Assembly (NCBI GenBank): GCA_019694655.1
Contig: JAIBBN010000001.1
Location: 62,001-126,000 of the forward strand
Direction: 5' to 3'
Source of the DNA: Leptospirales bacterium
GTDB taxonomy: Bacteria > Spirochaetota > Leptospiria > Leptospirales > Leptonemataceae
Length of the DNA stretch: 64,000 nucleotides
A program made the translations under genes and the position numbers. The notes below the pieces were generated by a model. The model worked only from the letters and a program-made list of their open reading frames with translations. It was not told where the DNA came from and searched no databases. The first letter of the stretch is position 1; each line of letters starts with the position of its first letter. This document shows, one piece after another, positions 35,846-39,503 of this stretch.

Positions 35846-36679
35846 TCAATGGTAAACAAAGATGGGCGATGGGCATTTTTCCAGCATCTTCTGGGTAACC
35901 GAACCAAAGAAAAATTCGCGCAGGCCGGACACGCCAAAGGCGCCCATCACCACGGCTTCGGGCCTGGCGGCATTTGCCAGATCCAGAAGCACGTCCATCG
36001 GCGGCTCCCTGGAAGCAGTGGGCGATTCCGTTACGGCTACTCCATGAGAACGCAGGTATTCTGCCGCCGCTGTGCATTGGGCGCTGGCGCGGCTCTGATC
36101 ATCGTGGATGGATACGACCGTCGCCTGCCTGCCGTTAGCCAAGCCTAACAGGGCAAAGAGCTGAATGGTGCGCGCAGCCTGAGGGCTGCCGTCCGTTGCA
36201 ATCATGACTCCGTTCCCGGGGTGCTGCACGGAAGGAACAATCAGCGTCGGGCGAGCCAGTTTTCGCAGCGCCGCGGGCAATGTGTCGCAGGCTTCATCCT
36301 GAGTAATGTGCTTCAAGTGCGGATGCTGCGCCGATACAAATAGGTCGCAACGAAATGCCTCTTCCTCTATGACTTCCGCCGGCTTGCCGTGCAGCTTGTG
36401 AGCTGTGCAGCGTACGCCAGCCTGCTGACATTGATCGCTGAAGTTCTTGATCAGCTGCTGCGCTCTTTCCTCGCCGCGCTGCAGGAGGGTATGCACTTTT
36501 TGCTGATGGAATTCGGCTGCGCCCGGCGGCACAAGTTCGGGCTCAGTAATGCCCGGTTCATCGACAATGCCAAGGGCAAGGATTTCCGCCTTAAATTCCG
36601 CGGCCAGCGCAAGAGCGCGCTGCTGAGCGTGGTGCGCCTCCGTGGAAGGATCCAGAGCGACAAGAATCCGCTTGAGCAT
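35846..36679 (-). CDS. Tandem-domain universal stress protein
   Basis: A 277-residue protein with two UspA folds. Domain 1 (1-145) starts MLKRILVALDPSTEAHHAQQ. Domain 2 (150-277) starts VMIATDGSPQAARTIQLF and ends with GAFGVSGLREFFFGS, which matches the G-2x-G-9x-G(S/T) ATP-binding motif; this motif is not obvious in domain 1. Such proteins bind nucleotides and help cells survive stress, mechanism unknown. The ATG at 36679 follows the inverted-repeat nest. It precedes the desaturase gene on the same strand. Confidence 0.92.
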   Translation of the reverse strand: MLKRILVALDPSTEAHHAQQRALALAAEFKAEILALGIVDEPGITEPELVPPGAAEFHQQKVHTLLQRGEERAQQLIKNFSDQCQQAGVRCTAHKLHGKPAEVIEEEAFRCDLFVSAQHPHLKHITQDEACDTLPAALRKLARPTLIVPSVQHPGNGVMIATDGSPQAARTIQLFALLGLANGRQATVVSIHDDQSRASAQCTAAAEYLRSHGVAVTESPTASREPPMDVLLDLANAARPEAVVMGAFGVSGLREFFFGSVTQKMLEKCPSPIFVYH

Positions 36680-36727
36680 ACCGGAGCTTCGACCCCTGTA
36701 TGTCGCGCGTCAATCAAATAAGAGCGC

Positions 36728-36917
36728 GTCCCAAAACTCCATCCGTGGAGTTTTGGGACAAACGGAACGGTTTTCAAAATTCGCTGCATTGCCTTCGGCA
36801 ATGGCGAATTCCCTGGAGAATTCGCACGAATTTTTCAACCGTTCCTCACATTCGCTTTACGAATGGCGCGACTTCCTTTCGCTAAGAGCCGGTTTTGGGA
36901 CCGGCTCTTAGGTCGCG
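36728..36917. repeat. Nest of perfect inverted repeats (structured element)
   Basis: Five or more hairpins are packed into 190 bases. They are: (1) a 14-pair perfect stem, 36728-36741 with 36746-36759, loop TCCG; (2) a long stem, 36764-36783 with 36827-36845, made of nine plus eight pairs with a small internal loop, that encloses two hairpins (36787-36803, loop TTC, and 36804-36825, loop CCTGGA); (3) a six-pair stem, 36849-36865; (4) a 12-pair stem, 36882-36893 with 36900-36911; (5) CGCGAC/GTCGCG (36867-36872 with 36912-36917) enclosing the last one. It lies between the P-ATPase stop and the stress-protein start, both on the minus strand, and contains no gene. GTTTTGGGAC occurs twice. It looks like a repetitive palindromic element or structured RNA. 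Confidence 0.75.
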
Positions 36918-39503
36918 ACGTTGTTGTCCCGATGCCACAGGCGGCGTCCGGCGGCGCCGCCGCTTCAGCGCCTTTTCTGCCTCGACGCCCCAGAAAACGA
37001 CGCTGGATAGTGCAAGGCAAAGCGCTAGTTCGGTTGGACTTAAACTTTGTGTATTGAACACAAAATGTAAAGGTGTAAAGTAGATCAGCGCCAGTTGCAG
37101 GGCGAGCGTCAGGCTGATCGCGCCAAGCAAGAAACGATTGGTGGAGAGCCCCATTTGAAACAGCGACAGCGTATCGCTGCGAATGGCCAGGGCATGTCCC
37201 ATCTGTGAGAGACAGAGCACGGTGAAAACCATGGTTCGCCAGTGTCCAACGTGGAAGTAAATGGACAACGCCTGCAACACAAGGCAGACGCCGCCCATCA
37301 GCAATCCGACCCACAGGATATGCCAGGCCATTCCGTCAGCAAAAATGCTCTCCGTCGGTTTTCGCGGCGGGCGACGCATCACATCGGGCTCGGCCGGCTC
37401 GCTGGAAAAGGCAAGGCCTGGCAGTCCGTCCGTTACCAGATTGATCCAGAGAATATGAATCGGTAGGAGCGGAATAGGCAAGCCCAGAACTGGCGCCAGA
37501 AAAATGGTCCAGATTTCGCCGCTGTTGCTGGTCATCGTATACTTGATGAACTTTCGAATGTTGTCGAAGATTCGGCGACCCTCGCGCACGGCGCTGGAAA
37601 TCGTGGCGAAGTTGTCGTCGAGCAACACCATATGCGCAGCTTCTCGGGAAACGTCAGTTCCAGTTCGCCCCATGGCGACGCCGATATTTGCGCGACGCAA
37701 GGCAGGCGCATCGTTGACGCCATCTCCCGTCATGGCTACATAGTGACCCTTCTTTTGCAGGGCCCGCACAATGCGTAGCTTCTGTTCCGGCGCCACTCGC
37801 GCATAAACGCGAATACGCTCCACAAGCTGTTCGAAACTGGTTTCATCCAAAGCCGCCAGTTGCGGGCCATGGATCAGCTCTGTCTCCGGATCGCGCATGA
37901 TCCCGAGTTTGACAGCAATTGCGGAAGCGGTCAGGGGATGGTCGCCAGTTATCATGACCGGCGTGATGCCAGCAGTGAAACAATCGGCAATTGCCTGTCT
38001 GGCCTCATCGCGCGGCGGATCGATCATACCCGCGAGGCCCACCGGCCTGAGCTCGCTCTCCAGTCGCAGGCGCTGCTCATCGTCCGGCGCTTGGTCCAGC
38101 AGACGCAGGCCGAAGGCCAGCACGCGCATTCCGCGATTTGCCATATCTTCCGCCAGAGGCAGCAGCGCAGCGCCCGCGTCATCTGCACATGCTGCGAGCA
38201 AGGATTCCACGCCGCCCTTGGTTACGCAGAGGAAGCGCTCGCCGTAGCGATGAACGGTGGTCATCCGCTTGCGTTCAGAATCAAAGGGCAGCTCGTCGAT
38301 GCGCAAATGTCGCTGCAATTCTGCGGCGCTTTCCAATCGTTGATCTCTGGCGTAGCGCAACAGGGCGAGTTCTGTAGGATCGCCTATCTCTTCGTCGCCG
38401 CTCTGGCGAACATCTTGATTCAGAAGCATCGCCAGGGTCAGCCAGCTGGAACATGGCAATCCCTGCCAATCGCCCTGCGCAGCATACGTTTCCACAACCG
38501 TCATTCGATTCTGCGTCAGAGTACCGGTCTTGTCGGAACAGATGTAGGTGACAGAACCAAGCGTTTCCACTGCCGGCAGTTTACGGATCAAAGCTTGTCT
38601 GGATGCAAGGCGGCGGGCGCCCAGCGCCAGCGCTATGGAAACAACTGCCGGCAGCGCCTCGGGAATGGCAGCGACCGCCAGGGAAATAGAAACCAGCAGC
38701 ATCTGCAGCGGCGCCTCTCCGCGCATCAAACCGACTACAAAAAGCAGCGCGCAAATTCCCAGGACAGCAAGCGAGAGCCGTTTGCCAAAATCAGCGAGGC
38801 GCTGCTGCAGCGGCGTTGGGCCGCTCTTTTCTTGCAACAGCAACGCAATTCGGCCCAGCTCCGTGTTCATGCCAGTGGCAACCGTCAGGCCCAGCCCGCG
38901 ACCATAAGCTACCGTCGAACCCTTGAAGACCATGTTCAGACGATCGCCTGGCGAAAGGGCCGCGCCGCTGATGACGGCGATGCTCTTTTCCACCGGTTGC
39001 GACTCGCCAGTCAGAGCGGCCTCCTCCATCAAGAGCGAGTGCGATTCAATCAGCCGCAAATCAGCAGGTATCATGTCGCCTGCTTCAACGGCGACGACGT
39101 CGCCCGCTACCACCTGGTCCGCTGGAACAATTTGCAGCTGCCGATCGCGCCATACGCGCGCCGCCGGCGCCGCCAGCCTTTTCAGCGCCTCCAGTGCAGA
39201 TTCCGCACGAAATTCCTGTGCAAAGCCCAACGCTGCATTCAACAAGACGATGACCAGAATAACAATCGTGTCCTTGTGATCGCCGATCAGACTGGAAATT
39301 ACGGCGGCCGCCAGCAGTATCAGAATCATTACATCCTTGAACTGATCGGCAAGAATGGCAAGGCGTGTTCGCCTGCCCTTGCCGCGCAGCCGATTGGGAC
39401 CGTCACGCAAAAGCCTGGTCGCCGCCTCGCTGTTGCTCAGGCCATCGCGATTGCTCTGCAGCTCCTGCAGAGCTTGCTCGGTGCTACACTGGTGCCAGTT
39501 CAT
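36882..39503 (-). CDS. P2-type (calcium-like) cation-transporting ATPase
   Basis: An 873-residue P-type ATPase. The actuator loop has LTGESQPVEKS, helix M4 has PEALPAVV, the phosphorylation site SDKTGTLTQN has Asp324, and the hinge has MTGDGVNDAPALRRANIGVA. M6 carries NLVTDGLPGLAF, with the Asn and Asp that bind calcium in SERCA/PMR1-type pumps; the N-terminal cation ATPase domain starts WHQCSTEQALQEL. Calcium export is most likely. The C-terminus is odd: after the last helix a strongly basic run (KRRRRRTPP) continues to a stop inside the palindromic element at 36882-36911. The gene for an exported protein ends three bases upstream of its ATG, so the two are co-transcribed. Confidence 0.93.
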   Translation of the reverse strand: MNWHQCSTEQALQELQSNRDGLSNSEAATRLLRDGPNRLRGKGRRTRLAILADQFKDVMILILLAAAVISSLIGDHKDTIVILVIVLLNAALGFAQEFRAESALEALKRLAAPAARVWRDRQLQIVPADQVVAGDVVAVEAGDMIPADLRLIESHSLLMEEAALTGESQPVEKSIAVISGAALSPGDRLNMVFKGSTVAYGRGLGLTVATGMNTELGRIALLLQEKSGPTPLQQRLADFGKRLSLAVLGICALLFVVGLMRGEAPLQMLLVSISLAVAAIPEALPAVVSIALALGARRLASRQALIRKLPAVETLGSVTYICSDKTGTLTQNRMTVVETYAAQGDWQGLPCSSWLTLAMLLNQDVRQSGDEEIGDPTELALLRYARDQRLESAAELQRHLRIDELPFDSERKRMTTVHRYGERFLCVTKGGVESLLAACADDAGAALLPLAEDMANRGMRVLAFGLRLLDQAPDDEQRLRLESELRPVGLAGMIDPPRDEARQAIADCFTAGITPVMITGDHPLTASAIAVKLGIMRDPETELIHGPQLAALDETSFEQLVERIRVYARVAPEQKLRIVRALQKKGHYVAMTGDGVNDAPALRRANIGVAMGRTGTDVSREAAHMVLLDDNFATISSAVREGRRIFDNIRKFIKYTMTSNSGEIWTIFLAPVLGLPIPLLPIHILWINLVTDGLPGLAFSSEPAEPDVMRRPPRKPTESIFADGMAWHILWVGLLMGGVCLVLQALSIYFHVGHWRTMVFTVLCLSQMGHALAIRSDTLSLFQMGLSTNRFLLGAISLTLALQLALIYFTPLHFVFNTQSLSPTELALCLALSSVVFWGVEAEKALKRRRRRTPPVASGQQRRDLRAGPKTGS

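Follow-up and report, generated by a model that had tools for sequence, protein, structure and literature searches.

A structured MITE family of leptospiral spirochaetes with one-strand GGA-loop hairpins as possible CsrA targets

The dense cluster of palindromes between a cation P-type ATPase gene and a universal stress protein (Usp) gene in the DNA analyzed here (a 64,000-nt stretch of a Leptospirales genome, referred to below as the window) is almost certainly a MITE, that is, a non-autonomous element derived from an insertion sequence (IS). The family to which it belongs shows terminal inverted repeats (TIRs), a target-site duplication, and multiple dispersed copies without a transposase gene. 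A preliminary description had left the choice between a palindromic repeat of the REP/BIME kind, the remains of a small transposable element, and a folded RNA; the second of these proved right, given the TIRs, the 3-bp TNA target duplications and the dispersed copies. The third probably holds in addition, judging from a structure that is kept with compensatory changes, although as part of a mobile element rather than as a lone RNA gene. As we set out below, our leading explanation, which we hold tentatively and at slightly less than an even chance, is that transcripts of this IS-derived MITE carry CsrA-type sites, acting as untranslated-region (UTR) modules or as decoys.

The mobile element proper occupies positions 36722-36907 (186 bp), with TAA on its left (36719-36721) and TTA on its right (36908-36910), where related copies have their TNA duplication; in the window copy the two flanks are no longer identical. 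Its left TIR, GAGCGCGTCCCAAAAC, lies at 36722-36737 on the plus strand and defines what we call the A end, and its right TIR, GAGCCGGTCCCAAAAC on the minus strand, lies at 36892-36907 and defines the B end; counted with the flanks, the two arms (36719-36737 and 36892-36910) are 89% complementary. The A end has a hairpin with a 14-bp stem (36728-36759; arms 36728-36741 and 36746-36759), described earlier by its TCCG loop, which on the minus strand presents the loop CGGA (CTCCA-CGGA-TGGAG), a putative CsrA-like site. The remaining features also read on the minus strand: a branched core (36764-36844), whose 17-pair outer stem consists of 9 + 8 pairs around a small internal loop and encloses 8- and 7-pair hairpins (GAATTC..GAATTC and ATTGCC-GAA-GGCAAT); a further hairpin (36849-36865; consensus CATTCGC-AAA-GCGAATG, with one change in the window copy), whose divergence between copies is among the lowest of any part; and a short GGA hairpin adjacent to the B end, hp1 (36868-36882; consensus GCGAC-AGGAG-GTCGC). 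The stem of hp1 is weakened in the window copy (GCGAAAGGAAGTCGC), for which the folding prediction does not include this hairpin. The B-end hairpin (CTAAGAGCCGGT/ACCGGCTCTTAG, 36882-36911) is the 12-pair hairpin of the preliminary description (36882-36893/36900-36911); of the further CGCGAC/GTCGCG stem said to enclose it, the GTCGCG arm (36912-36917) lies outside the element. The 6-pair hairpin (ATTCG..CGAAT) and the absence of T-tracts from the palindromic region were borne out, as was the reuse of one sequence in two stems, which arises because the TIR has that sequence, GTTTTGGGAC, as its inner half. When compared with dinucleotide shuffles, folding on either strand gives z = -9.6, a value matched by 0 of 200 shuffles.

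The placement between the two genes is likewise correct, but the end of the P-ATPase gene (36882-39503, minus strand), which lies upstream of the element, falls within the element itself. Because the ATPase frame enters the feature and ends at a TAG in the right-hand hairpin (36884-36882, minus strand), the last residues, LRAGPKTGS, are encoded in or at the repeat, and the stop codon is supplied by the element. The Usp gene (35846-36679), on the same strand, starts about 42 bp downstream. No convincing coding signal was found in the element by codon position or stops, some frames being open; one frame has a small excess of synonymous changes, which probably reflects transition bias and was discounted.

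A search of the same genome with 36700-36940 returned seven other near-full-length copies at 77-92% identity, along with many shorter matches; when the copies are aligned, the similarity begins and ends at the inverted repeats. In total, this genome holds eight compound copies (the others 76-92% identical to that of the window) and a partial one, elements of a second compound type, and roughly a dozen short versions of 36-46 bp, each made up of the two ends with a single loop (e.g., TTA-GAGCGCGTCCCAAAACCCCATCCGTTGAGTTTTGGGACCGGCTC-TTA). The inverted ends common to the copies read GAGC(G/C)(C/G)GTCCCAAAAC, with the TAA/TTA target duplication also present in intact copies; in general form the element ends are GAGCNNGTYYCAAAAC in inverted orientation. 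Among 62 candidate elements from seven genomes, identical TNA flanks were present in 31 (16 TAA, 14 TTA, and 1 TGA), as they were in 16 of the 26 listed elements whose TIRs are near-perfect; these counts are mildly overestimated since identical flanks were favored in choosing among overlapping candidate pairs. Since TAA can serve as the target, several copies lie precisely at stop codons; several also have decayed ends. Of 48 genomes of the class, 8 contain an exact match to the TIR pattern with TNA, compared with one match each to a reversed-pattern control in three others; outside the class the pattern is rare, with four more genomes among 393 sampled from the phylum. A covariance model built on a section of the core finds nine sites in the genome of origin, namely the eight compound copies and the partial one; its matches in other genomes are weak and serve as a lead only. 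We found no match to the element in a plasmid collection and none to the TIR in viral contigs, and the covariance models of Rfam yielded no significant match (the sole hit, mir-583, was non-significant).

Further copies in the genome and its relatives, which the preliminary description had named as the sign of a mobile repeat, extend to six compound types from five genomes: the genome of origin and G006 in the same family, and G036, G037 and G038 in other families of the class. These types measure 83-190 bp and differ in their stems and cores, yet follow one asymmetric plan, in the order A end, core hairpins, hp1, and B end. The two end hairpins draw on different halves of the TIR: the inner half (GTCCCAAAAC..GTTTTGGGAC) forms the one at the A end, and the outer half (AAGAGCCGG..CCGGCTCTT) the one at the B end.

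Several other palindromic repeats were observed in the course of these searches. Two genomes, G042 and G032, contain elements of about 90 bp (L184, L188, L195, L182, L198) that share the TIR of the family; most show a TNA duplication, their core is different (CGCCRTYRCTTGGC..GCCGAACGCGGCTTGTCGCGCGACGAGG), and no GGA hairpin was seen in them. A spirochaete of another family, G054, has intergenic arrays in which several perfect hairpins display loops of the ACANGGAUGU type on a single strand (GCGTACAAGGATGTACGC, TGCTGACACGGATGTCAGCA, GCGACAGGATGTCGC) at L259, L274, and L293-L307 (e.g., L295:1530-1680 and L294:1615-1690); 52.8 kb of these loci hold 68 GGA loops compared with 12-23 in shuffles, the loci having been picked by an hp1 model, so that the set is biased. 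Short palindromic elements with the TIR GAGCCTGTTCCAAAAC, one of them with internal CGAACGYAGTTCGCAAA-type repeats, occur in G341 and G358 (L242-L249), from another spirochaete family, and the last 200 bases of L148 in G006 carry a palindromic repeat, CAGGCTGCTGAAAAAGCAGCCTGC with GAAAAAGTCCACGGATGGACTTTTTC, in which a loop on one strand also contains GGA.

The two strands of the compound elements differ in the placement of GGA in hairpin loops. Read on the B-first strand (the minus strand of the window), the element has two such hairpins, hp1 and the A hairpin. The former appears as GCGAC-AGGAG-GTCGC in the main type of the genome of origin and GACA-AGGA-TGTC in its second type, as GGTC-AGGAT-GACC and CAC-AGGAA-GTG in G006, as GGTAC-AGGGAT-GTACC in G038, and as AACGC-GCGGAG-GCGTT in G037. 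In most copies the loop of the A hairpin is CGGA, TGGAG, AGGAG or TGGA, and in some the GGA has been lost. With all compound elements folded, GGA loops make up 39 of 129 on the B-first strand vs. 11 of 132 on the other, over a background of 4-5% per strand among ordinary perfect hairpins of the window (at least 5-6 bp); the pattern was seen first and counted afterwards. An alignment of eleven hp1 sequences has 96% of cells paired and two-sided changes at four of five pairs, in keeping with the suggestion in the preliminary description that covariation would support RNA structure. Across types the stem accumulates 19 compensatory cells around an invariant GGA, a count reached by 0 of 500 shuffles, although the element types are related by descent, so that the shuffle counts overstate independence and are not probabilities.

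Divergence among the eight copies suggests that they have been under constraint since insertion. Relative to their consensus, 6.3% of cells differ in the core and 14.6% in the ends (Fisher p = 1.4e-7), a 2.3-fold difference; by part, hp1 diverges by 3.3%, its neighboring hairpin by 4.4%, and the two end hairpins by 17% and 13%. Purely neutral decay predicts equal divergence throughout, and the lower divergence of the core, seen in 8 of 8 copies, counts against it.

The element would have been moved in trans by a transposase that is no longer recognizable in its own genome. A DDE enzyme is suggested by the combination of TIRs and 3-bp duplications, and in the IS5 family the IS1031 and IS427 groups have TIRs that start with GAG and a TNA target. 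A source of this type thus appears to fit the TNA target, the GAG-type ends, and the similar end of an IS in G006, which encodes DUF4096 and DDE domains and whose TIR, GAAGCCATCTCAAA, resembles the GAACACGTCTCAAA of the element. That IS (loci L122-L125 and L152-L157) is multicopy, shows a TA duplication, and is a possible relative of the missing parent; as the parent itself it was rejected, since its GAAGCCATCTCAAA ends do not match and it duplicates TA, not TNA. An IS1182-like IS in G006 and G011, with ends GAGCCTGTCGAAAAACC and different flanks, was rejected as well. Searches with PF01609, PF13340 and PF13586, and for TIR pairs spaced at 0.4-3.5 kb, found no autonomous parent with the TIRs of the element.

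What the conserved hairpins might bind is suggested by their form, and CsrA is the best single mechanism that we can offer for strand-specific GGA hairpins, although our confidence in it is evenly balanced. Hairpins of the CsrA/RsmA type have an NGGA apical loop on a short hairpin with a variable stem; in this family hp1 shows these features strongly and the A hairpin shows them in most copies, the window's hp1 being weakened. In G038, hp1 contains GUACAGGGAUGU, within the sequence GGTACAGGGATGTACC, and so matches exactly the consensus for CsrA, RUACARGGAUGU, as quoted in PMC8668096. In the same work, CsrA of L. biflexa bound an RNA with GGA in a hexaloop in a gel shift and did not bind its AAA mutant, and Leptospira genomes were reported to be without homologues of CsrB and CsrC (PMC8668096). 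The genome of origin itself encodes CsrA (C7), matching solved CsrA/RsmE chains, with a FliW-like ORF adjoining the gene.

Under our leading explanation, then, a MITE family with the TIR GAGCNNGTCCCAAAAC and a 3-bp TNA target duplication would carry, in its longer versions, a conserved structured cassette. In the window, the B-first strand would be transcribed by read-through from the P-ATPase gene towards usp, yielding an RNA with two NGGA-loop hairpins that are predicted CsrA targets. Copies in UTRs would place neighboring transcripts such as usp under the influence of CsrA, and the set of copies could act together as a distributed CsrA decoy; transcription, CsrA binding, and an effect on neighbors or on free CsrA are steps that we infer. 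Counting against this explanation are the balanced orientation of the GGA strand relative to neighboring genes, the weakened hp1 of the window copy, the loss of GGA from some A hairpins, the elements of G042 and G032 that share the TIR but showed no GGA hairpin, and the failure to find an autonomous partner. A wider version, in which a leptospiral-spirochaete element family has a conserved pair of CsrA-binding hairpins as its cargo and transposition spreads CsrA-responsive sites and decoys, seems to us rather doubtful.

The main rival to the CsrA-type reading, which we judge a serious contender even if somewhat improbable, is that this is a plain MITE with no host function, whose hairpins and GGA loops were inherited from a parent IS (where they may have been sites for the transposase or a structured leader that limited its expression) and whose copies decay neutrally. 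The TIRs, the TNA duplication, and the short and long deletion versions all suit it, as do the decayed ends, the copies at stop codons, where insertion into TAA is harmless, and the finding that GGA strands have no bias relative to neighboring genes (sense and antisense are about equal in tandem contexts, with genes called by ORF length only). It does not, however, predict the uneven divergence described above, and the compensatory changes together with a GGA that is invariant across types imply selection on one strand.

Two other explanations fare less well. A terminator active on both strands, or an mRNA stabilizer processed by RNase III between convergent or tandem genes in the manner of NEMIS/Correia, would suit hairpins that are very stable on both strands and copies placed just past stop codons, but the element has no T-tract, and this explanation leaves the strand-specific GGA loops, the asymmetric plan, and the low divergence of hp1 unexplained; we regard it as unlikely. 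Less probable still, and already largely refuted, is a REP/BIME palindrome in the strict sense, moved by a RAYT (Y1 tyrosine) transposase that acts on single-stranded DNA. In its favor, the palindromes are intergenic and dispersed and show asymmetric hairpins on a single strand, but Y1_Tnp searches found no match in the genome of origin, G006 or G036 (and one match each in G038 and G037), and the TIRs and 3-bp TNA duplications suit a DDE enzyme instead.

Among known systems, CsrB/CsrC and RsmX/Y/Z are sponge RNAs with GGA-loop hairpins on one strand, as in the element. The element differs from them in having two GGA hairpins in each copy rather than many, in being dispersed by transposition, and in having no Rfam match and no identified promoter or terminator. 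Titration by CsrB/C is noted in PMC12594629, which also describes a structured RNA from a mobile element, the IS200 5'tnpA small RNA, whose GGA sites have been proposed, but not demonstrated, to bind CsrA; that RNA comes from a transposase leader, whereas the element has TIRs and no transposase. Of the bacterial MITEs, some of which have known RNA-level effects, Correia/NEMIS, ERIC, and RUP resemble the element in being shorter than 200 bp and non-coding, with TIRs, a TA-type target, structured RNA, and copies that lie at the ends of genes and form fusions with ORFs (PMC2229807). They are unlike it in that the element has a three-base TNA target, end hairpins built from different TIR halves, and one-strand GGA-loop hairpins, and they are described with IHF or methylase sites, not CsrA sites (PMC2229807). 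QMITE1 and QMITE2 of Coxiella burnetii are likewise a MITE family and a source of small RNAs, but QMITE1 is 300-400 bp long, unlike the element, and CsrA is unmentioned in that work (PMC5896051). The GAG-type TIR and TNA target are shared with the IS1031 and IS427 groups of IS5, with no IS found to have the element's own TIR. In the open-access literature we found no report linking CsrA with a MITE family, nor a MITE family with conserved CsrA-type hairpins.

Should CsrA not bind these hairpins, the family would still clearly exemplify a MITE whose asymmetric, structured plan has been maintained across genera. If the CsrA-type reading is true, mobile CsrA-type hairpins would offer a testable answer to the question of what titrates CsrA in the Leptospira group, and the elements could fill the role of CsrB/C in those lineages that have them, showing how a transposon can rewire a global post-transcriptional network.
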